DNA from: Amycolatopsis australiensis
GTDB lineage: Bacteria > Actinomycetota > Actinomycetes > Mycobacteriales > Pseudonocardiaceae
Direction: 5' to 3'
Assembly (NCBI RefSeq): GCF_900119165.1
Contig: NZ_FPJG01000006.1
Coordinates: forward strand, 1,798,001 to 1,862,000
Length of the DNA stretch: 64,000 nt
Shown here: positions 53,599-63,988 of the stretch, in pieces
How positions within the stretch are numbered: position 1 is the first letter of the stretch
Layout: each line of letters starts with the position of its first letter
The notes under the pieces: model-generated
What the model saw: the letters and a program-made list of their open reading frames with translations, nothing else
Told to the model about the DNA's origin: nothing
Databases searched by the model: none
Translations under genes and position numbers: made by a program

Positions 53599-55047
53599 TT
53601 ACGGGTTGCCCTTACGGGGGCTTTCCGGTGCCTCGCCGATGACGGGCTTGACGAGCTTCTCGCCGTCCGGGCCGCGTTCGGGCTGGAGGTCGAAGACGTC
53701 TTCCTCGACGGCGTACCGGTTCTTGTGCTCTTTGTCGTCTTCCTTCTTCTTGCCCGCGCTGGCACCACCGGCGGCCCCGGCCGCCCCCTTGCCCTTGGCC
53801 GCCGCAGCGGCGGTTGCGCCGCGTTCGAGCCGTTCGCCGGGAGCCTTCCCGCCGGTCTTGCCGCCCGCACCGGGGGTTTCCTTCGGGCCACCGGTGTAGC
53901 CACCCCCGGAAACGCGCGAGCCGGCGAACCCGGTACCGGCCCGGCCGGAGCCGATGCCGGGCTTGCCGCGCGTGATGTCGCCGCCTCCGGCGCCGGTGCC
54001 ACCGGGCGTGCCGGGCATGGCGAGCCCGTCGGGAGTCATGCGCGTGAAGGAGCTGGCGGCGGGCGCGGCGCGGAAGCCGCTGTTGCCCCCACCGAAGTTG
54101 GGTCCGACCCCGCTGGTGGTGCCGGGCTGGACGTAGGAGGGCGGAGTGGCCCCGGGCGGCACGTAGCCGCTGCCGGTCCCGACGGTGGTGCCGCCGGGCG
54201 CGGTGGTCGTCCCGCCGCCGATACCGGGGGTGCCGGTGAAGCCGGTGCCCGTGGTACCGGTCGTGCCGGTGGTGCCGCTTGTGCCGTGGAACCCGGAGAC
54301 GGAGGTGGCGTCCCCGTTCCCGAGCTGCGGCGGCGGCGCGTAGGTGGGCTGGGAGCTGGCGGTCTCGTGGTAGGTGGAGTCGAGGCCCTGAAGGACCTGA
54401 ACGGCCTGCTGGTGCGCGGCGTCGGCCTGCTGCTGCTTGGCCTGGATGCCGGCCATGGTGGTGCCCATGCCGATGAGGTCGCCGGATTCGTACTGCTGCC
54501 GGGCCTTGTCCATCTCGGCCTGCTGGTTGAAGCCGGTGGGCTCGGGCATGTTGGTCTTGGCGTAGTACGCGGCGGCGGACTGCTGGGAGTAGTGGTTGGA
54601 CATGAGCTGCATGGCATTGCCGGTTTGTTCGGTGTGCCCGGCGGTGCTCTGGAAGAAGCTGTTGGCCTGCTCGGCGGCGGGACCCTGCCACGAGCCCCCG
54701 GCGGCCGTGGCGGCGTCGCGGAATTGGTTGGAGGCGTCGGCCAGCCAGTTGCCGTAGACGTTGGCCACGCGGCTGCGGTCGTTGATGCCTTCGATGTCGA
54801 GGTCCTTGTGGACCATGTCGTAGAGCACTTCGTGCGGGCTGTTGGCGTAGTTTTCGCCGGGGGCCGGTGAGTCGCCGCGCAGGTTCTGGCCCTGCTGCAG
54901 GAGCTTCCCTTGCGCAACCGAGTAGTCGGACGCGGCCTTCTCGGTCAGCCGCTGTCCGTCCTGCCCGTGACCTTGGAGCTTGCGGGCGGTTTCCGCGTAG
55001 TAGTCACCCTCGGACAGGTGGTGCTGCGCCCGGTGCGGCTGACTCAT
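53599..55047 (-). CDS. PPE/WXG100-like type VII secretion-associated protein with Gly/Thr/Pro-rich tail
   Basis: 482 aa from an ATG at 55047. Helical N-terminal half (about 1-240) with the WXG-type motif SWQGPAAEQANSFF near residue 120, similar to the PPE/ESX-like proteins of actinobacteria. A long low-complexity tail (Gly/Thr/Pro-rich, 250-450) ends in a charged segment. Probably exported by an ESX/type VII system, with the DUF3558 lipoprotein and EspG-like gene beside it; core secretion genes (EccC etc.) are not in the window. Confidence 0.85.
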   Translation of the reverse strand: MSQPHRAQHHLSEGDYYAETARKLQGHGQDGQRLTEKAASDYSVAQGKLLQQGQNLRGDSPAPGENYANSPHEVLYDMVHKDLDIEGINDRSRVANVYGNWLADASNQFRDAATAAGGSWQGPAAEQANSFFQSTAGHTEQTGNAMQLMSNHYSQQSAAAYYAKTNMPEPTGFNQQAEMDKARQQYESGDLIGMGTTMAGIQAKQQQADAAHQQAVQVLQGLDSTYHETASSQPTYAPPPQLGNGDATSVSGFHGTSGTTGTTGTTGTGFTGTPGIGGGTTTAPGGTTVGTGSGYVPPGATPPSYVQPGTTSGVGPNFGGGNSGFRAAPAASSFTRMTPDGLAMPGTPGGTGAGGGDITRGKPGIGSGRAGTGFAGSRVSGGGYTGGPKETPGAGGKTGGKAPGERLERGATAAAAAKGKGAAGAAGGASAGKKKEDDKEHKNRYAVEEDVFDLQPERGPDGEKLVKPVIGEAPESPRKGNP

Positions 55048-55061
55048 GACTGGACTCCGTC

Positions 55062-55622
55062 TCAGTTCTTGGGCAGAAGCGGCTCGACCTTGGCGGCGAT
55101 TTCTTGGACCATCTGGCAGGCCCTTGCGGTGTCCGAGCCCGAAGCCAGCAGGACGAACGCTCGGGAGTTGGGTTTCACTTCCAACCACACGTCGCACTGC
55201 CCGGGCGAGTTCTCCGGTTCGCGCTCCAAAACCGCAGGACGCCCGTTGACGTTTCCTTCACTGGCCTGGTTGGGATTGCCGACATTTTCCTTGTATCCGC
55301 GGCCCGGGTTCAAGGACAGCCCCACGTCCACGCCTGGTGTGTCTCCGGACGCCGGCTTGGTGGTTCGGCATCCCTGCTTCGGATTCGCCACCAGTGGCTC
55401 CGCCTTGGGATAACCCTGACCGACGAGCGCCTGGTCGAGGATGGCGCAAGAACTCATAGCCGCGAAGGGGTTGTCCGGTTCGGCGGTTGCGCTGCCTGAG
55501 CTGGGAGCAGTCGAGCCGGCCGGCTGCGAGCTGGGAGTCGCCTGGCCACCGACCTGACTAGTGCAGGCAGTCAAGGCGAATGCCAACGTGGCGAACACGA
55601 CCACGATGCGTCGTGCGCTCAC
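55062..55622 (-). CDS. DUF3558 lipoprotein
   Basis: 186 aa. Signal peptide with lipobox ALTAC, a Ser/Thr-rich linker, then a DUF3558 domain (CAILDQALVGQGYPKAEPL, CDVWLEVKPNSRAFVLL given by cores ILDQALVGQGYP and CDVWLEVK). Exported and lipid-anchored; members occur beside ESX-type genes and have no known activity. GTG start overlaps the stop of the upstream gene in GTGA. Confidence 0.88.
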   Translation of the reverse strand: MSARRIVVVFATLAFALTACTSQVGGQATPSSQPAGSTAPSSGSATAEPDNPFAAMSSCAILDQALVGQGYPKAEPLVANPKQGCRTTKPASGDTPGVDVGLSLNPGRGYKENVGNPNQASEGNVNGRPAVLEREPENSPGQCDVWLEVKPNSRAFVLLASGSDTARACQMVQEIAAKVEPLLPKN

Positions 55623-56116
55623 TGTTCCTGCAGCCCCTTGTTGAGCTGACTGAAAGTCATAGTGTGCGCATCCTCGGTCTCGCGGTAGTTCTTGCGTGCG
55701 ATCACCATCGCTTCACGAGCTTGCTGGATCCCGTCACGCATCCGGAGCAGGTTGGGGATCAGGGATTGCTCGTCGCCGTCGGCCACCTTGACGTTGAAAG
55801 CGGCGACTGCCTTGGCGTATTCGCTGCCGCCCATCTTGGCCTGAGCTGCCAGTTCGCGAACATCGACGATCATCCGGTTGTAGCCGTCGAGAAAGAAGTC
55901 GCAGGCCTTCATGTACGCCTGGAAGCCTTCTTCGTTCACCGCGAACTGGCCGTTCTCGGCCAGCGACTTCAGGTGGTGACCACCCTCGCTGACCCGCTGT
56001 GCGGCCTCCGAGTCGGTAGGTCCGTCCAGCAACCCGGACAGGAAGTTCGCCCCCGCGTCACCCGCGGCCGGTGGGGGTGTGAACGAGCCCGGTGCGCCGA
56101 ACTGTGAACCGCCCAT
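55619..56116 (-). CDS. ESX-associated helical protein, unknown function
   Basis: 165 aa, mostly alpha-helical, with a Gly/Pro-rich start (FGAPGSFTPPPAAGD) and a Glu/Lys-rich coiled-coil-like middle. No recognised domain. Its coupling to the DUF3558 lipoprotein and position between it and EspG suggest a component or chaperone of the same type VII locus. Confidence 0.8.
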   Translation of the reverse strand: MGGSQFGAPGSFTPPPAAGDAGANFLSGLLDGPTDSEAAQRVSEGGHHLKSLAENGQFAVNEEGFQAYMKACDFFLDGYNRMIVDVRELAAQAKMGGSEYAKAVAAFNVKVADGDEQSLIPNLLRMRDGIQQAREAMVIARKNYRETEDAHTMTFSQLNKGLQEQ

Positions 56117-56187
56117 GACGCCCTCCCCGTCGTCTCGGCACCACCCTGCGTGGTCTCTCGCACTGTACTAGTGACGAACTTGCCGCG

Positions 56188-56880
56188 TCAGTGGTTCCGG
56201 CCACGCTCGTGGAGCCAGCGGCGCAGGTCGGAACCATCCGATGGGATGAACCGAACCCGGGTCGAGCCGTCCGGGAGGGGGTCGTTGAACATCAGGAAGC
56301 GGCCGCCTTCGTTGTCCACGAACGTTGCCGTTCCCGCCGGCTTCAACGCTCCCGACTGGCGGACCGACAGCTCGAACGTGCCGTACCTGTGCAACGGCCA
56401 TGCCGAGAACTCCGCCGCCGCCTCGGTGTCGGCGCGTGAACCAGGAGTGGTGAACGTCAGCTCCGCCAGCGGTACCGGCCGGTACGCCGGGAGCATGCCG
56501 ACCACCAGGTCGACCAGCCGGTCCGGGCGGGTCTGGGCGAACAGGATCTCCTCGCTCGCCAGCTCCGAAAACACGCCAAGGCCGTGGCCGATCGCCGCGC
56601 GGTAGAACACCCGGCGGTCCTGCTCCGCCGCGCGGACGATGATCAGCACGTCCGGCTGCGTCCACGCCCGCAGCGTCTGCTCCACCTCGATGTCCAGCTT
56701 GTCCGGGCCCGCCAGCCCGCGCGCCCGCATCGATTCCCACGACGCCGCCGCGATGCGGTCGTGCTCGGCCAGGGTCCGGCCGGGGCTGCGGATCTCGAAC
56801 GGGTGCCAGTTCGCCGGGAGCCCGCTGCGGCGGACCGCCGTGTCGACCTCCGCCAGGCCCAGTGAGAATTCCTCCGGCAC
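56188..56880 (-). CDS. EspG-family type VII secretion chaperone
   Basis: 230 aa from a GTG. EspG chaperones bind PE/PPE substrates in the cytosol and deliver them to the ESX secretion machine. The C-terminal half carries the family pattern (SWPLHRYGTFELSVRQ core HRYGTFELSVR, FVDNEGGRFLMF, ending in a basic tail). Together with the PPE-like gene at 53.6 kb this marks a partial type VII locus. It is read just after the Ycf46 operon, 34 nt behind the IF2-barrel gene, and may share its transcript. Confidence 0.85.
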   Translation of the reverse strand: MPEEFSLGLAEVDTAVRRSGLPANWHPFEIRSPGRTLAEHDRIAAASWESMRARGLAGPDKLDIEVEQTLRAWTQPDVLIIVRAAEQDRRVFYRAAIGHGLGVFSELASEEILFAQTRPDRLVDLVVGMLPAYRPVPLAELTFTTPGSRADTEAAAEFSAWPLHRYGTFELSVRQSGALKPAGTATFVDNEGGRFLMFNDPLPDGSTRVRFIPSDGSDLRRWLHERGRNH

Positions 56881-56914: not shown

Positions 56915-58165
56915 TCAGATGTCGAGCTGCCGCACACCCGTCTCGCGCAACGCCACCCGCCCGGCCGTCGCCCGCGCGCGCAGCCGGACGATCTCGTGCG
57001 GCTGCAACCCGATCGCGACGCCGAACGCCTCCACGTCCGGGAACCCGCCCTGCCGCCGCCGCATGTCCACCGCTGTGGCGACTCTTTCGGGTGACATTCC
57101 CGGCAGGCCGGCCAGCTCGGCCTCCGACGCCGCGTTGACGTCCACCAGCGCAGCGGGAACCGGCGGAACAGGAACCGGCGCAGCGGCAACCGGCAAAACC
57201 GGCGGAGGCGCCAGCGGCGCCACATCGGCCGGGACGTAAGCCTCGATCCGGTCGTTCGGCCGCAGGTCCCGGAACGCCAGCCCGACGGTGAACGTCCGCG
57301 CCCCGCCGTTCGTCCGCACCGCCACGCCGTCCCGGGCCAGCGACAGGATCCGCAGGTCGGTCGCGACGACCGTGCTCTGCTCGTTGAACGTCGTCCCCAT
57401 CGGCCGCAGCACCCGCGCCCGCGTGCCGACCGTGAACACCGACCCCAGGCCCTCCGGCACCTCGACCGCCGCCACCACGGTGCCGTTGCCGAGGTCGTTC
57501 AGGCCGTGCACCGCCGCCGTGCCCTCCCGCCGCTCCAGGAAGTCCCGCGGGGGCTCGTGGAACGCCGTCAGCGCGTCGCCGGCCAGTGGCGGCACGGCGC
57601 ACTGGAAGCCGAGCAGCACGGTGCCCGGCTGCCCGGCCGGCAGCTCCTCGAGCGGCCCGGCCGGGCCGAACAGCCCGAGCACCCGCATCGGCTCGCCGAC
57701 CGGACGGCCGCCGCGCGTCAGCCCGCAGAGGGCGCCGAACCGCAGGATCCCGTGCTCCTGCCGCACCTGCACGTGGAACCCGGTCAACTGGTCGTAGGCG
57801 GGCGCGAACACCGACGCGACACCGTCCTGGCGGCTCAGGTCCGGGCCGACCGCTTCGTCGGTGTACAGCTCCAGCGAGTCCCCGTTGCCGATGTCCCGCC
57901 GCCCGGCGGCCACGAAGACGTCCTTGAGGAACCCGGCGTCGGTCACCGGCTCGACGCCGCTCGAGAAGAACTTCTTCCGCACCATGATCCCGAGGCGCAG
58001 GTTGTCCGCCAGGACGCGGTCACCCCGGCGGAGGCGCGCGCGGGCGCCGCGGACCGCGCGGCCGGCGCTCACCTGCCCGCCCGGCAGCTCCCCGAGGCCC
58101 GGGAGGGTGACCGAGTCGTTGAGCGCCTTGCCGAACTCGATCAGCCCGACCCTGACCTCGGTCAC
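56915..58165 (-). CDS. Protein with IF2-like beta-barrel and C-terminal helix-hairpin-helix, unknown function
   Basis: 416 aa from a GTG. Residues about 230-330 resemble a translation-factor barrel, in particular the IF2 C-terminal barrel: FTVGTRARVLRPMGTTFNE, then LRILSLARDG and TFTVGLAFRDLRPNDRIEAYV (written here as core GLAFRDLRPNDRIEAYV). After a Pro-rich linker, residues about 340-400 form a ComEA-like helix-hairpin-helix (VDVNAASEAELAGLPGMSPERV core ASEAELAGLPGMSPERV), a nucleic-acid-binding fold. The N-terminal 220 residues are not recognised. Last gene of the Ycf46 operon, overlapping the DUF1257 gene by 4 nt. Confidence 0.75.
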   Translation of the reverse strand: MTEVRVGLIEFGKALNDSVTLPGLGELPGGQVSAGRAVRGARARLRRGDRVLADNLRLGIMVRKKFFSSGVEPVTDAGFLKDVFVAAGRRDIGNGDSLELYTDEAVGPDLSRQDGVASVFAPAYDQLTGFHVQVRQEHGILRFGALCGLTRGGRPVGEPMRVLGLFGPAGPLEELPAGQPGTVLLGFQCAVPPLAGDALTAFHEPPRDFLERREGTAAVHGLNDLGNGTVVAAVEVPEGLGSVFTVGTRARVLRPMGTTFNEQSTVVATDLRILSLARDGVAVRTNGGARTFTVGLAFRDLRPNDRIEAYVPADVAPLAPPPVLPVAAAPVPVPPVPAALVDVNAASEAELAGLPGMSPERVATAVDMRRRQGGFPDVEAFGVAIGLQPHEIVRLRARATAGRVALRETGVRQLDI

Positions 58166-58599
58166 GACGTGGCGGCCAGCGTGACGCTGACCGACTGGTC
58201 GGCGTTGACCCGCTCGGATTCGACGACCATGCCCGCCTGTGCCGCGCGCGCCTTGAGCCGGGCGAGCACCGACCGCTGCACCTCGGCGGCGTAGGCCTCG
58301 TCGACCGACACGACCAGCCGGGCGGCTTCGGCTTCGGTGAGGCCGGGCCCGTCGACGTGCGCGAGCTGGACGCCGTCCGGGCCGTAGCCGAACGTGATCC
58401 GCCGTCCCTCCCACGCGGCGACGACGGACGTGCCGTCGTCGGTCACCTGGGCCCGCAGCCCGCTGAGCGCGCGGGCCAGCAGGTCGCGGTGCCGCATCCG
58501 CGTCCGGACGGTGACGACACCGGGCTGCGCGTGCGCGGCGATGGTCGCCGCGTTCAGCTGGGCCAGCGCTTCACTGCGCAGCTTGAGCGTGACACTCAT
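58162..58599 (-). CDS. DUF1257/Ycf35-like protein
   Basis: 145 aa. Resembles the DUF1257 family that includes cyanobacterial and plastid Ycf35: the segment MRHRDLLARALSGL near residue 35 and a C-terminal VDEAYAAEVQRSVLARLKARA (core YAAEVQRSVLARLK) followed by a beta tail (SVSVTL). DUF1257 proteins have no known biochemical activity. Overlaps the radical SAM gene in ATGA and the next gene in GTGA. Confidence 0.8.
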   Translation of the reverse strand: MSVTLKLRSEALAQLNAATIAAHAQPGVVTVRTRMRHRDLLARALSGLRAQVTDDGTSVVAAWEGRRITFGYGPDGVQLAHVDGPGLTEAEAARLVVSVDEAYAAEVQRSVLARLKARAAQAGMVVESERVNADQSVSVTLAATS

Positions 58600-59171
58600 C
58601 GGTGCTCCCCTTCGAGCAGCGCTTCCAGTACTTCGGTGGTGGCGAACCCGTTCAGCTCGATCCCGCCGTCCGGGGCGATCCGCAGCTCGAGCCGGTTCGG
58701 GGTGGTGAAGATCGACTCGTCGTAGCGGTCGGTGAGGAAGTGGAACCGCTGGTTGGCCGACCCCACCCACGGCCGGGAGGTCTCCGGCCGGTCGGCGCGG
58801 AACGGCCCGTCGACCAGCAGGTCCGTCGAGTCGAGCAGCTTCGACGGCGGCAGGTCCTCGATCACGTGCCCGGTGAACGTCATGACCGAGAGGCCCGCCG
58901 CGCGGACGGCTTCGGCGAAGCGGCCCAACGGCGCGGCCTGGTCGAACGGCTCTCCACCCAGAAGTGTGACGCCTTCGATGCCCTCGACGGCCAGCACGTG
59001 CGAAACCAGCTCGGGCCACGGCAGCGCAAAGCCGCCGCGCGTGGTCCACGTCTGCGGGTTGAAGCAGCCGGGGCAGCGGACCGAGCAGCCCTGCGTCCAC
59101 ACCGCGCACCGCAGGCCCGGGCCTTCGGCGGCCGTGACGTCGACGATCCGGTGCAGGTTCAGCAGTTCCAT
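58596..59171 (-). CDS. Short radical SAM enzyme (NrdG/pyruvate-formate-lyase-activase-like)
   Basis: 191 aa. The 4Fe-4S cluster Cys are C29, C33 and C36 in CSVRCPGC, followed by the SAM-binding LLGGEPF. Length and motif spacing match the small activase-type radical SAM proteins (NrdG, PflA family), which abstract a hydrogen from a protein or small-molecule partner. No ribonucleotide reductase or glycyl-radical enzyme is nearby, so the substrate is probably inside this operon. ATG at 59171, 13-nt overlap with DUF2997. Confidence 0.88.
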   Translation of the reverse strand: MELLNLHRIVDVTAAEGPGLRCAVWTQGCSVRCPGCFNPQTWTTRGGFALPWPELVSHVLAVEGIEGVTLLGGEPFDQAAPLGRFAEAVRAAGLSVMTFTGHVIEDLPPSKLLDSTDLLVDGPFRADRPETSRPWVGSANQRFHFLTDRYDESIFTTPNRLELRIAPDGGIELNGFATTEVLEALLEGEHR

Positions 59172-59374
59172 TGCGACTGCTGCTGCGTGGCGGTGTTCTC
59201 CGCGGAGGCCGACGTGCGCCGGTAGTCCTCGGTGAATTCCGACGTGACCGTCTCCGCGCCGAGCAGGTCCTCCAGCAGCGGGATGTAGTCGAGGCACTTC
59301 GAGCCGGTGACGCCGTGCGTCTCGGCGCTGATCGAGCCGTCCTTGCCGATCGTGACGGTCACGCGGTGCGTCAT
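59159..59374 (-). CDS. DUF2997 small protein with C-terminal Cys
   Basis: 71 aa. Residues 1-50 match DUF2997: [42 protein letters not shown]. After that a Gln/Ser/Thr-rich tail ends exactly at QSQWNC, with a Cys as the last residue. DUF2997 proteins are associated with DUF1257 and Ycf46 in many bacteria and have no known function. The conserved Cys28-region and the terminal Cys are candidates for the radical SAM or AAA partner. Overlaps Ycf46 in ATGA. Confidence 0.85.
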   Translation of the reverse strand: MTHRVTVTIGKDGSISAETHGVTGSKCLDYIPLLEDLLGAETVTSEFTEDYRRTSASAENTATQQQSQWNC

Positions 59375-60999
59375 ACGTCGATCGTCCTTCCGCTCGGGGA
59401 GTCCGCCGGTGCGGCCGGCGGCACCGTGACGGGCTCGGGAGCCGCGGTGCCGGTGTCCGTCGCGGCCACGGCCCGGGTCTGCGCCCAGTTCCGGATGGCC
59501 AGGATCTCGTCGGCCTGCGTGACCGAAAGCGGGACGGTCGACTTGACCGCCCGCACGAGGTCGTCGCGGCGCAGCGGCCGCTGCTCGGCGAACGCGTCGA
59601 CCAGCCCGGCCAGCACGGCCTGCTCGATCTCGGCGCCGCTGTAGCCCGCGCTGACGTCGGCGAGCTCGGCGAACAGCGCGTCGTCCAGCCGCAGCTCGCT
59701 GCCCACGAACGGGTCCGTGACGCGCTTGTGCAGGTGGATCCGCCAGATCGCGGCGCGCTCGGGCGCCGACGGGAGGTCGACGAAGAAGATCTCGTCGAAC
59801 CGGCCCTTGCGGAGGAACTCCGGCGGCAGCGAGTCGACCTGGTTGGCGGTGGCCATCACGAACACCGGCGCGGACTTTTCCTGCATCCAGGACAGGAACG
59901 TGCCGAACACGCGCCGTGCGGTGCCGCCGTCACCCCCGCCGCCGGCGCCGGCGAGGCCCTTCTCGATCTCGTCGACCCACAGCACGCACGGCGCGATGCC
60001 CTCCGCCGTCCGGATGACCGTGCGGATGTTCTTTTCGCTGGACCCGACCAGGCCGGCGAAGACGCGGCCGAGGTCCAGCCGCAGCAGCGGCAGCCGCCAC
60101 ATGTTCGCCACGCACACCGCGGACAGGCTCTTGCCGCAGCCGGGGACGCCGGTGAGCAGCAAGCCCTTCGGCGCCGCGAGGTTGTACGCCGACGCGGCGG
60201 GCGTCCACGTGCCGGTGCGCTTGGTGAGCCAGCGCTTGAGCCGGTCGAGGCCGCCGACGGCGTCGAAGCTCGTTTCCGCCGGCACGATGTCGAGCATCCC
60301 GGACCGCCGCACGGCCTGGCGCTTCTCGGCGAGGATCAGCTCCAGGTCGCTCGGGTCCAGCCCGCCGCCCTCGACCAGGGCGCGCGCGAACGCGTTCTCG
60401 GCCTCCGGCAGCGTCAGCCCGCGTGCCGCCGCGACGATCCGGTCGCGGTCCTCGCGGCCGATGCTGATCCGGACGTTCTGCCGGTGCGCGGCGACCATGC
60501 TGTCCAGCAGCTCGCCGATCTGGCGCTGGTCGGGCAGCGGGAAGTCGACGACCGTCGCGTCGTGTTCCAGCTCCGGCGGCACCGGCAGCGACGGCGACAC
60601 GAGGACGAGGCTCAGCGGCACCGGACGCGTCTTGAACGCGGCGGCGAGCTCGCGCAGCCGCCGCACGACGTCGGGATCGGGCCGGTGACCGCCCTCGGAA
60701 ACCAGGGACGGGTGCAGGTCCACGAAGACGAACACGGCGGGCTCGCCCCAGCCGTGCACCCGCTCGAGCGCGGCGGCCGCGGCGCGGGTCTCGCTGATCG
60801 GCGGGCCGCCCGCCGGGGCCAGGCCGGTGGTGGAGGACCAGACGTAGACGCGTCGCGGCGTCCGCAGCCGCTGGGGATCCTCCGCGACGGCGCGGATCTC
60901 CCGCAGCACCCGCTGCTCTTCGTGCGTCTCGACGACCAGCAGCGGGTAGCGCGCCTGCAGCAACTGGGTCAGCTCGTCGCGAAACCCCTGGCCGGCCAT
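59371..60999 (-). CDS. Ycf46-like AAA+ ATPase
   Basis: 542 aa from an ATG with GGGGG at 7-nt spacing; a TAGGGT box lies at 61029-61034. N-terminal domain (about 1-250: [20 protein letters not shown] core [15 protein letters not shown]) characteristic of Ycf46, then one AAA+ module: Walker [12 protein letters not shown] near residue 280, Walker [11 protein letters not shown] near 345, a Gly-rich pore-side loop, sensor MATANQVD and the arginine-finger/second-region [14 protein letters not shown]. Ycf46 is encoded in red-algal plastids and cyanobacteria; function poorly known. First gene of the operon; the ATPase motor of the presumed complex. Confidence 0.93.
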
Positions 61000-61346: not shown

Positions 61347-63005
61347 ATGCCTGACGCGCCCGCCTTGCCCAGCTACGCCTCGGGAATCTCCGAGGTCCCG
61401 CTGCTCGGGGACACCATCGGCGACAACTTCGATCGGACGGTCGCCGCGTTCGGGGACCGGGACGCCCTGGTCGACCGGGCCGCCGGGCGGCGGTGGACCT
61501 ACCGGGAGCTGGCCGCCGAAGTGGACGCGCTGGCGCTGGGGCTCGTCGCGCAGGGCATCGGCAAGGGCGACCGGGTCGGGATCTGGTCGCCGAACCGTGC
61601 GGAGTGGACGTTCCTGCAGTACGCGACGGCGAAGATCGGCGCGATCCTGGTCAACATCAACCCGGCCTACCGGTCGCACGAGCTGGAGTACGTGCTCAAC
61701 CAGGCCGGCATCCGGATGCTGGTGGCCTCGGACAAGTTCAAGACGTCGGACTACCCGGCGATGGTCGACGAGGTGCGGGAGAAGTGCGCCGCGCTGGAGC
61801 ACGTCGTGATCCTGGGCGGCGACGGCTGGCAGGCGCTGGTCGACGCCGGACGGCGGGGTGACCCGGGGCAGCTGGCGCACCTGCAGGCCGGGCTGTCGGC
61901 CGACGACCCGATCAACATCCAGTACACGTCCGGGACCACGGGTTTCCCCAAGGGCGCCACGCTGTCCCACCACAACATCCTCAACAACGGCTTCTTCGTC
62001 GGCGAGCTGTGCAACTACACCGAGCAGGACAAGGTCTGCATCCCCGTGCCCTTCTACCACTGCTTCGGCATGGTGATGGGCAACCTGGCCTGCACGAGCC
62101 ACGGCGCCTGCATGGTGATCCCGGCGCCGGCGTTCGACCCGCGCGCGACGCTCGAAGCGGTGGCGGCCGAGCGGTGCACGTCGCTCTACGGCGTGCCGAC
62201 GATGTTCATCGCCGAGCTGAACCACCCCGGCTTCGGCGAGTTCGACCTGTCGTCGCTGCGGACCGGGATCATGGCGGGCTCGCCGTGCCCGGTCGAGGTG
62301 ATGAAGCAGGTCATCGACCGGATGGGGATGAGCGAGGTGTCGATCTGCTACGGCATGACCGAGACGTCGCCGGTGTCCACGCAGACCCGTGCCGACGACT
62401 CGATCGAGCGGCGCGTGTCGACGGTCGGTCGGGTCGGGCCGCACCTGGAGGTCAAGGTCGTCGACCCGGAGACCGGGCTGACCGTGCCGCGCGGCGAGCC
62501 GGGCGAGCTGTGCACGCGCGGGTATTCGGTGATGCTCGGCTACTGGGAGCAGCCGGACAAGACGGCGGAGGCGATCGACGCGGCCCGCTGGATGCACACC
62601 GGCGACCTGGCGGTGATGGACGCCGACGGCTACGTCAACATCACCGGCCGGATCAAGGACATGGTCATCCGCGGCGGTGAAAACCTGTACCCGCGCGAGA
62701 TCGAGGAGTTCCTCTACACGCACCCGGACATCCTCGACGCGCAGGTCATCGGCGTCCCCGACGAGAAGTACGGCGAAGAGCTGATGGCCTGGATCCGGAT
62801 GCGCGAAGGTGCCGAGCCGCTGACCGCGGAGAAGGTGCGCGAGTTCTGCGAAGGCAAGCTGGCGCGCTACAAGATCCCGCGGTACGTCCACGTCGTCGAC
62901 GAGTTCCCGATGACCGTCACGGGCAAGGTCCGCAAGGTCGAGATGCGCGAGAAGTCGATCAGCCTGCTCGGCCTGGAAAAAGCCGCCGCGACCAAGCACG
63001 CCTGA
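61347..63005 (+). CDS. Acyl-CoA synthetase (AMP-binding, FadD-like)
   Basis: 552 aa. ANL-superfamily ligase that activates a carboxylic acid with ATP and transfers it to CoA. P-loop [11 protein letters not shown] near residue 193, A5 motif YGMTE, A7/A8 region [15 protein letters not shown] and TGDLAVMD, and the catalytic Lys in the C-terminal [10 protein letters not shown]. Full length, probable fatty or aromatic acid substrate; no clue to chain length. Converges with the R2-like oxidase, 14 nt apart. Confidence 0.93.
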
Positions 63006-63019
63006 CCCGGGGAACGGCC

Positions 63020-63988
63020 TCAGCCGACGGCCGCGGCGGCCTCCGCGATCGCCTTCGCGTCTTCCTCGCCGAAGGTGTCCTCCAGCTGTTCGGGTGAATA
63101 GTCCAGGTCGATCTGCTCCACCGGCATGCCGCGGGCCGACTCGATCGCGCCCAGCCGCCGCTGCGCGCGGTCGGCCGCGTACTGGACGATCTCCTGCGGG
63201 TCGTTGTCGAAGGGCAGTTCCTCGAACTGGTCCTGCACCCACTGGATCATGTTCAGCGCGTGCGGCAGCAGCTCGCCCATCCGCTGCTGCACGGCGTCCC
63301 ACAGCGAGTCGTCCGCGGCGACGTGCCGGCGGCAGGTGAACGTGCCCCACGCCATGTGGCGGCGCTCGTCGTCGCCGATGCGGCGGACCAGCTCCTGCAT
63401 GCCCGGGAGGATGTCGTGCTGGGTGCAGATCAGCTGCCACGAGTAGTAGCCGGTCAGCGCGAGGCTGCCCTCGATCACGTGGTTGTACGTCACGCTCGCG
63501 CGGATCTGGTTGAGCGGGCTGGGATCGTCCTCCAGCGCGCGCAGCGACTGCGGCAGCTCCTCGTAGAACAGCTTGCGGTAGTGCGGGTTCTCGGCCACGT
63601 ACGGGTGCAGGTCCTCGGTCAGCCCGACGGCGTCCATCCAGCGGCGGAACACCTCCGTGTGCTTGGCTTCCTCGAAGCAGAACTGCGTCAGGTACATCTC
63701 GTCGCCGAACCGGCCGGTCGCCGACATCGCGCGCATGAACGGCTGGATGTCCTCGGTGACGGCCTCTTCGCCCGCGATGAACTGCGCGACCAGGTACGTC
63801 GTGCTCCGCTGCTGCTCGGGGTTGAGCGTGTCCCAGCCTTCGCGTTCGCGGCTGAAGTCGATGTCGGCCGGGTTCCAGAACTTCTTGTTGCCCTTGACGA
63901 ACAGGCGCAGCGGGAACGAGTCCCAGTTCAGCCCGCCCTTGCGCAGCGAGGAAAAGCCGGTTCGCAGTTCGGGCAGCGTGTCGGTCAT
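63020..63988 (-). CDS. R2-like ligand-binding oxidase (R2lox, Mn/Fe cofactor)
   Basis: 322 aa, closely matching M. tuberculosis Rv0233. All metal ligands are in place: Glu74, Glu107, His110, Glu173, Glu208 and His211, and the residues that form the characteristic Val-Tyr cross-link are Val77 and Tyr168. Distinct from ribonucleotide reductase R2: no radical Tyr path, and a fatty-acid-like ligand binds the Mn/Fe site. Two-electron oxidase of unknown physiological substrate. It may act on a lipid made or activated by the neighbouring acyl-CoA synthetase, which is only proximity-based. The ATG is at 63988 and the gene is complete. Confidence 0.94.

Follow-up and report, generated by a model that had tools for sequence, protein, structure and literature searches.

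A conserved five-gene cassette around a Ycf46-type AAA+ ATPase in Amycolatopsis australiensis, with a C-terminal tail common to two of its proteins

Introduction

Five genes lie head to tail on the minus strand of a 64,000-nucleotide stretch of Amycolatopsis australiensis DNA (contig NZ_FPJG01000006.1, positions 1,798,001 to 1,862,000; hereafter the window), in the order Ycf46-type AAA+ ATPase, DUF2997 protein, radical S-adenosylmethionine (SAM) protein, DUF1257-related protein and helix-hairpin-helix (HhH) protein. Do they form one system, and if so, what would such a system do? A first-pass annotation of the letters alone had read them as a candidate for an undescribed system, probably a complex that modifies or remodels a nucleoprotein. 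The five overlapping genes that it reported are real, with consecutive overlaps of 4, 13, 4 and 4 nucleotides (nt; the second had been given as 16), and Pfam confirms AAA, DUF2997, Fer4_12/radical SAM and HHH_3 among their products.

Results

The five genes are inherited as a unit

A collection of species genomes was scanned with the radical SAM protein, yielding 209 relatives, of which the best 80 loci were used; those closest to the window's cassette are from Amycolatopsis. All five families are adjacent on one strand in 76 of the 80 loci, across Actinomycetota, Bacillota and Sumerlaeota, a figure that is valid for the close radical SAM clade because only the best 80 of the 209 relatives entered it. 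Three of the four exceptions (L015, L043 and L061) are interrupted by contig ends. In the fourth, L078, the radical SAM gene stands alone, and the core triad of the same genome (Ycf46, DUF1257 and DUF2997) is on another contig (L147).

Five gene orders occur among the 76 complete loci. Ycf46-DUF1257-DUF2997-HhH-radical SAM accounts for 36 and the window's order for 34; four loci, from Clostridia, read DUF2997-HhH-radical SAM-Ycf46-DUF1257, and the remaining two orders are represented by one locus each. Genes overlap at 201 of 303 junctions, by exactly 4 nt at 125, although these counts lean on a start-codon rule for the relatives that favours starts near the preceding stop. Since the set is kept in five orders, selection appears to hold the set and not its order, and the keeping of a set while its order shuffles is strong evidence for joint function. 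The five genes are one conserved, co-inherited unit. Repeated adjacency in unrelated phyla, which the first-pass annotation had named beforehand as the decisive observation, is thus what the loci display; homologues are not scattered, adjacency is not peculiar to this genome, and the similarity to DUF2997 and DUF1257 persists in profile searches. The claim that the system is undescribed also agrees with the literature searched, which was seen in part: it yielded no description of the five-gene set or of the tail reported below, and matches to the combined terms were plastid or cyanobacterial by title.

A sixth gene common to all lineages was considered and dropped, as none was found across the cassette lineages. 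Some lineages do have a sixth member, because an extra gene stands directly upstream of Ycf46 in 20 of the 21 window-order loci outside Amycolatopsis (Cryobacterium, Mycetocola, Microbacterium and Glaciihabitans kin, of Microbacteriaceae type); the 21st (L077) begins at Ycf46. This gene often overlaps the Ycf46 start, is present in two copies in Microbacterium, and encodes one hydrophobic segment (e.g., L039 7208-8050 and L057 6468-8044), and the five such proteins scanned gave no convincing Pfam match. A further, mixed cluster of flanking sequences comprises 60 open reading frames (ORFs) over 30 loci, on both strands and at scattered distances.

A C-terminal tail is shared by the ATPase and the HhH partner

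Cassette Ycf46 proteins end like RGGRTVDF and their HhH partners like GRVVDF. The common motif, R-x-[ILVMAC]-[DE]-[ILVFYM]-COOH, closes 70 of 77 Ycf46 and 74 of 78 HhH proteins and none of the 233 proteins of the other three cassette families. Among the remaining stop-to-stop ORFs of at least 120 amino acids (aa), which number 5191 (5541 ORFs minus 350 cassette genes) and include many shadow frames, only 2 carry it. Homologues of the window's own partner (P0023-P0098) end V/I-R-Q-L-D-I in 76 of 76 cases, a count that excludes P0099 from Microbacterium, which aligns over 14% of the gene 5 protein.

The 9.3 Mb host genome has three matches to the DNA pattern [GV]R-x-[ILVM]-D-[NTN codon]-TAA/TGA: the two cassette genes and gyrB. 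Reversing the pattern as a control gave two matches, which makes a single stray hit the chance expectation. The GyrB-like protein (L172 1501-3018) ends VRFLDV and is the sole non-cassette gene end with the pattern.

The tail had escaped the first-pass annotation, and we regard it as the strongest mechanistic clue that the locus offers. For this cassette the tail pair can be taken as firm, and a few independent systems support it; it is not universal.

A wider core recurs on chromosomes, plasmids and phages

Searches for DUF2997 found it in 3 of 296 Actinomycetota genomes (the host's included; two over the cut-off), 3 of 249 genomes in the phylum of a Lederbergia, and 20 of 193, 11 of 201 and 3 of 40 genomes in the phyla of metagenome-assembled genomes (MAGs) from Myxococcales, Chloroflexi and Sumerlaeota, respectively. 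The searches gave 48 distinct places, of which 40 were examined with larger flanks and 8 left out. Ycf46 is nearby on the same strand in 31 of the 40, and none lies in the stretch examined in the other 9 (L145, L146, L153, L160, L161, L167 and L169-L171). A radical SAM gene is near DUF2997 in most Chloroflexi-type and part of the Myxococcota-type loci; an HhH gene was not seen in the stretches examined of either type. The wider core is Ycf46-DUF1257-DUF2997, which is thus met in additional phyla and also on plasmids and in one phage.

Three loci have other neighbours. In L145 (Myxococcota-type), DUF2997 and radical SAM genes are near an SF1 helicase-like gene. In L152 (a Chloroflexi-type genome) and L186 (a Pseudanabaena plasmid), the triad is linked to Hsp70-like and WD40 proteins, in L186 also to GrpE, and both Ycf46 proteins stop a few residues beyond a QLDIR sequence.

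Conjugative plasmids of Paenarthrobacter and Rhodococcus carry the full five-gene cassette. The triad lies within a few genes on plasmids of Paenibacillus, Bacillus licheniformis and three cyanobacteria, on an IncC plasmid and in a Rhizobium phage; the IncC DUF1257-like gene, which Pfam does not call, and the two small triad genes of the Rhizobium phage are assigned by start and position only. Ycf46 itself is present in 54 phage records and in a phage satellite. In the host's own family, DUF2997 occurs in 4 of 249 genomes, namely 4 of 17 of its genus and 0 of 232 others. This patchiness within genus and family, together with the plasmid copies, marks the cassette as accessory, and it is probably a mobile, accessory module.

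Mobile elements also hold related arrangements. A second cassette with a relative of the radical SAM protein (L177-L180 and L188) is found on plasmids of Gamma-, Beta- and Alphaproteobacteria, where it comprises a large AAA-domain protein, a PIN domain protein, a hypothetical protein, an AAA ATPase (AAA_2 in L178) and the radical SAM protein. On a Treponema succinifaciens plasmid (L183 5363-9587), a radical SAM gene and a tail-bearing Ycf46 adjoin a gene whose annotation reads phage baseplate assembly protein V, so that the setting may be contractile injection-like.

Such a distribution raises the prospect of a conflict or defence module against phages or rival plasmids, in which the tagged HhH protein would be the sensor or effector. 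The cassette is patchy even inside a genus and travels on two conjugative plasmids, its ATPase family reaches phages and a satellite, and on a cyanobacterial plasmid the triad sits beside RloB, DUF4007 and zeta-toxin genes. PADLOC matches the ATPase to the IetA defence model (81.6 bits); in IetAS, the ATPase is paired with the subtilisin-like protease IetS. A second such pair is sgiAT of SGI1, whose antitoxin is a Ycf46-superfamily AAA protein partnered with a subtilisin-like protease (PMC10954446). The ATPases of both pairs belong to the same broad superfamily as the cassette's. Unlike IetAS and sgiAT, however, the five cassette genes include no protease, nor do they include a nuclease or toxin; the NCBIfam IetA score of the ATPase is 74.2 bits, far below the cut-off of 510, which places it outside IetAS; and PADLOC, run on the cassette proteins, gave no convincing match for the other four. 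Moreover, a chromosomal DUF2997-ycf35-fed7 cluster is widely kept in cyanobacteria (PMC4284462), which gives those copies a housekeeping look. We consider defence unlikely, although it retains an appreciable share of the probability.

Tails appear, in dialects, in other Ycf46 systems

Both plasmid-borne cassettes carry the tail pair: GGRRIDF and GGRTLDL in Paenarthrobacter, GGRTFEF (one residue outside the regular expression) and GRRLEF in Rhodococcus. Of 8000 Ycf46 homologues scored, the best 120 include 37 with the strict tail and 31 with the motif at most 14 residues from the end. Chloroflexi-type Ycf46 proteins end like GERLMEF. In 17 plasmid or phage Ycf46-like genes, the strict tail was found in three (L175, L183 and L185) and a looser form or dialect in another three (L176, L182 and L195).

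The IncC Ycf46 has the ending GRKLAIED, and three genes downstream of it share the ending KRKIILD. Four of 645 ORFs of at least 60 aa, in 100 of the 174 kb, have such an RK-tail, and they are Ycf46 and three genes within 5.3 kb; one further, antisense ORF on this stretch fits a looser pattern. Javan368, a Streptococcus satellite phage, has a Ycf46 ending TRKVLV beside a neighbour ending NRKIKI; none of its other ORFs, 45 in all with these two, fits the looser pattern. A P. polymyxa plasmid encodes two small proteins, hydrophobic at their starts, that end SRVIHF and KRVIRL. With the antisense IncC ORF included, the looser scan returned one extra short or antisense ORF on each of three stretches (IncC, P. 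polymyxa and Paenarthrobacter). No radical SAM gene is annotated near the IncC Ycf46, and Myxococcota clade 1, most members of which have the motif a few residues from the end, has none in the stretches examined; the tail therefore seems not to be tied to the radical SAM enzyme.

In the Chloroflexi-type loci L154, L156, L157, L159 and L164, the gene upstream of and beside Ycf46 encodes a protein of 429-461 aa that ends R-M/L-x-A-L-E-L/V in all five, making it a possible further tail-bearing partner. Two of these proteins were scanned and gave no Pfam match.

The five proteins and their surroundings

The features of the window's cassette are listed in Table 1.

Table 1. Features of the five-gene cassette in the window.
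Feature	Position	Strand	Evidence or remark
Ycf46-type AAA+ ATPase, 542 aa	59371..60999	-	PF00004 2.2e-27
ATPase C-terminal tail GRTIDV-stop	59371..59391	-	
DUF2997 small protein, 71 aa, G-x-x-C motif	59159..59374	-	58.0 bits
Minimal radical SAM protein, 191 aa, CxxxCxxC at residue 29	58596..59171	-	
DUF1257/Ycf35-related protein, 145 aa	58162..58599	-	Mean predicted local distance difference test (pLDDT) of model 81
Barrel/HhH partner protein, 416 aa, GTG start	56915..58165	-	
Partner residues 107-206, IF2/EF-Tu domain 2 type beta-barrel	57548..57847	-	Amycolatopsis only
Partner residues 338-396, ComEA-like HhH	56978..57154	-	31.3 bits, cut-off 27
Partner C-terminal tail VRQLDI-stop	56915..56935	-	

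The ATPase has an intact AAA domain (96.5 bits to PF00004), with Walker A from residue 284 and Walker B from residue 341. All 78 cassette Ycf46 proteins have Walker A, and 77 of the 78 have Walker B; a full-length alignment of eight proteins gives 37-52% identity to the first, and homologues carry the source name SpoVK/Ycf46/Vps4. Its Walker motifs and full-length similarity class the protein as a Ycf46-type AAA+ ATPase.

The radical SAM protein belongs to its superfamily by sequence: it scores 30.4 bits against a Pfam cut-off of 29.5, CxxxCxxC is present in 81 of 81 family members, a GGEPFDQ stretch is conserved, and relatives elsewhere are annotated "4Fe-4S single cluster domain protein". 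It could be a conventional glycyl-radical-enzyme activase of the NrdG or pyruvate formate-lyase (PFL) type, with the AAA protein as its chaperone, an arrangement with a parallel in benzylsuccinate synthase operons, where AAA chaperones accompany glycyl-radical activases. NrdG is its best NCBIfam match, PFL-activating enzymes are its solved relatives and have CxxxCxxC in common with it, and 9 of 27 host genomes hold an NrdD or Gly_radical domain. The NrdG score of 96.4 bits, however, is below the equivalog cut-off of 126.1, there is no glycyl radical enzyme among the five genes, and, unlike in NrdG and PFL systems, both NrdD (PF13597) and Gly_radical (PF01228) are absent from the host's own genome and from 18 of the 27 genomes that hold a complete or partial cassette. 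That two-thirds of hosts, 18 of 27, lack both families largely refutes the activase reading, which we hold to be highly improbable.

DUF2997 (PF11211) is recognized at 58.0 bits against a gathering cut-off of 24.1, and G-x-x-C is present in 78 of 78 cassette DUF2997 proteins, the window's included. As a small protein with an invariant cysteine, encoded close to a radical SAM gene in many loci (including four, L145, L153, L160 and L161, with no Ycf46 in the stretch examined), it could be the substrate of peptide modification akin to that of ribosomally synthesized and post-translationally modified peptides, the other proteins processing or exporting it. Its core, though, is conserved along its length like that of a folded protein and not like a leader followed by a variable core; it persists where no radical SAM gene lies in the stretch examined (Myxococcota clade 1) or is annotated near (IncC); and neither a protease nor an exporter is among the five genes. 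Peptide modification is accordingly improbable in our estimate.

Pfam does not match the fourth protein itself to DUF1257 (PF06868), and it is for this reason named DUF1257-related and not a Pfam member. Its orthologues in Geobacillus and Metabacillus cassettes are at or over the cut-off, and these account for two of three matches in 16 genomes scanned, the third being in a core-triad locus. Four of 26 family members reach E 1 or better against DUF1257 (best 7.9e-5), and the family profile matches nine classical DUF1257-type proteins in profile-profile comparison (E 9.7e-6, probability 82.6). Through these orthologues and profiles the protein is, at the level of sequence, homologous to DUF1257/Ycf35.

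HHH_3 is detected in 26 of 26 partner family members at E 0.1 or better, and the predicted model of the partner contains beta strands and HhH helices. In Amycolatopsis, the strands form a barrel of EF-Tu domain 2 type that resembles those of IF2/eIF5B, EF-Tu domain 2, P. furiosus PF0907 and P. abyssi Pbp11. Unlike IF2-type factors, the partner has its barrel fused to an HhH domain, and Pfam finds no GTPase family in the protein. Outside Amycolatopsis, 62 of 64 partners have one to four hydrophobic, membrane-like segments (the other two are cut by contig ends), and the barrel, seen in Amycolatopsis only, occupies the place of the relatives' membrane segment. The translation-factor-like part on which the first-pass annotation had built is thus no feature of the system, and nothing was found that points to the ribosome or RNA polymerase as target; of its nucleic-acid target, contact with DNA stays plausible, from the HhH domain, rather than proven.

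With its HhH domain and membrane-like N-terminus, the partner also invites comparison with ComEA, and the cassette might be a DNA-uptake or membrane-DNA module in which a ComEA-like DNA receptor is run by the AAA ATPase. The likeness is confined to the HHH_3 domain, as the partner scores 23.9 bits against an NCBIfam comE cut-off of 152.35; the Amycolatopsis partner has lost the membrane part; and the tail-bearing neighbours of the satellite phage, the P. polymyxa plasmid and the one IncC protein scanned have no Pfam HhH. We judge this reading very unlikely.

Beyond the cassette, the next gene 3' is EspG-type and is not counted as a member; its product (56188-56880, PF14011 1.1e-26), among genes at 53599-56880, suggests an ESX-type secretion neighbourhood downstream. 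Upstream are a plus-strand gene (61347-63005) that looks by eye like an acyl-CoA synthetase and, beyond it, a ribonucleotide reductase small-chain (R2-type) domain protein (63020-63988, PF00268).

Discussion

Relation to known systems

The cassette fits no known system tested; only its single domains have known kin. Among the closest arrangements is the cyanobacterial DUF2997-ycf35(DUF1257)-fed7 cluster (PMC4284462), which together with Ycf46 (slr0374) has the same three core families plus an iron-sulfur (Fe-S) protein. Its Fe-S partner is the [4Fe-4S] ferredoxin Fed7, whereas that of the cassette is a radical SAM enzyme, and in the excerpts of that paper the cluster is listed without ycf46 and without any named HhH partner. 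Cells can do without Fed7, but its loss makes them sensitive to stress from oxidants, metals and iron limitation (PMC4284462). In turn, ycf46 (slr0374) sits in a stress-responsive operon, and its inactivation lowers EcaB carbonic anhydrase activity (PMC7496141, the latter citing Jiang 2015). In a set of 127 plastids from red algae, marine habitat and gene presence agree at 81.8% for ycf35 and 87.9% for ycf46 (PMC5940233). The published work on these families that the searches brought up concerns cyanobacteria and plastids.

For the ATPase domain, the closest solved relatives are the Cdc48/p97-class unfoldases, in particular the second AAA domain of p97/Cdc48. Like them, the cassette ATPase would combine an AAA domain with a second AAA-like region; unlike them, its first region is seemingly degenerate, and we propose DUF1257/DUF2997 adaptors and client recognition by a C-terminal tail.

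A tail-directed remodelling machine

Starting from the gene set, its conservation, the tail pairs and the ATPase and cluster motifs, we tentatively propose that the cassette is a self-contained, mobile, Cdc48-like AAA+ machine that docks and remodels tail-tagged partners via a DUF1257/DUF2997 adaptor and adds radical SAM chemistry, a reading to which we give slightly less than an even chance. Ycf46 would assemble into a Cdc48-like hexamer, with DUF1257 and DUF2997 as its candidate adaptor. The tail would serve as a docking tag, that of the partner binding a site otherwise filled by the ATPase's own tail, and ATP hydrolysis would then extract or remodel the partner, here an HhH protein of DNA-binding type. 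The client would usually be membrane-located, the window's version carrying a DNA-binding-type domain. With less assurance, the radical SAM enzyme may modify a protein of the complex, either DUF2997 at its invariant cysteine or the partner, and not a glycyl radical enzyme. The Fe-S component seems replaceable, being a radical SAM protein here and ferredoxin Fed7 in the cyanobacterial cluster.

Several observations weigh against this proposal. The tail expression was fitted after the data had been seen, and gyrB of the same genome fits the pattern too, by chance or for reasons of its own. The strict tail is absent from 7 of 77 cassette Ycf46 proteins (L016, L017, L018, L020, L076, L079 and L032, which are four Actinoplanes, a Dactylosporangium, a Micrococcales MAG and the Sumerlaeota locus) and from 4 of 78 HhH proteins (L026, L032, L063 and the cut-off L031). 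More widely, 52 of the best 120 Ycf46 homologues have no tail, including a large clade ending like ASRFG, as do 11 of the 17 plasmid or phage genes (L184, L186, L187, L189-L194, L196 and L197), and the Ycf46 of the P. polymyxa plasmid ends RRISH, missing even the loose pattern. No recognized DUF1257 or DUF2997 gene lies beside the tail pair of the satellite phage, so the tail receptor could be Ycf46 itself. The N-terminal region of the ATPase, which lacks Walker A and which we infer to be a degenerate D1, aligns weakly end to end with the protein's own AAA domain (hhalign P 0.004, probability 3.5%), and structure comparison gave no clear fold match for the DUF1257-related model.

Implications for the Ycf46 family

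A broader and rather doubtful extension of the remodelling machine is that Ycf46 ATPases are a wide class of client-specific remodellers, many working by a C-terminal tail code, of which plastid ycf46 and ycf35 would be remnants. If so, an ATPase and its co-encoded clients would carry the same short C-terminal address, in a dialect for each system: the cassette would use GRxxDF, IncC plasmids RK-tails that end IILD, and the phage satellite R-K-hydrophobic-x-hydrophobic. Such a code would be at work in chromosomal, conjugative-plasmid and phage systems alike.

Ycf46, Ycf35/DUF1257 and DUF2997 are kept by cyanobacteria, some plastids and many bacteria, and in the literature searched their mechanism is unassigned. 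A compact cassette in culturable soil bacteria and bacilli makes the function of these families directly testable. The shared tail would be a first functional handle on them, and may also offer a route to sequence-based searches for clients in genomes and plasmids, including IncC.

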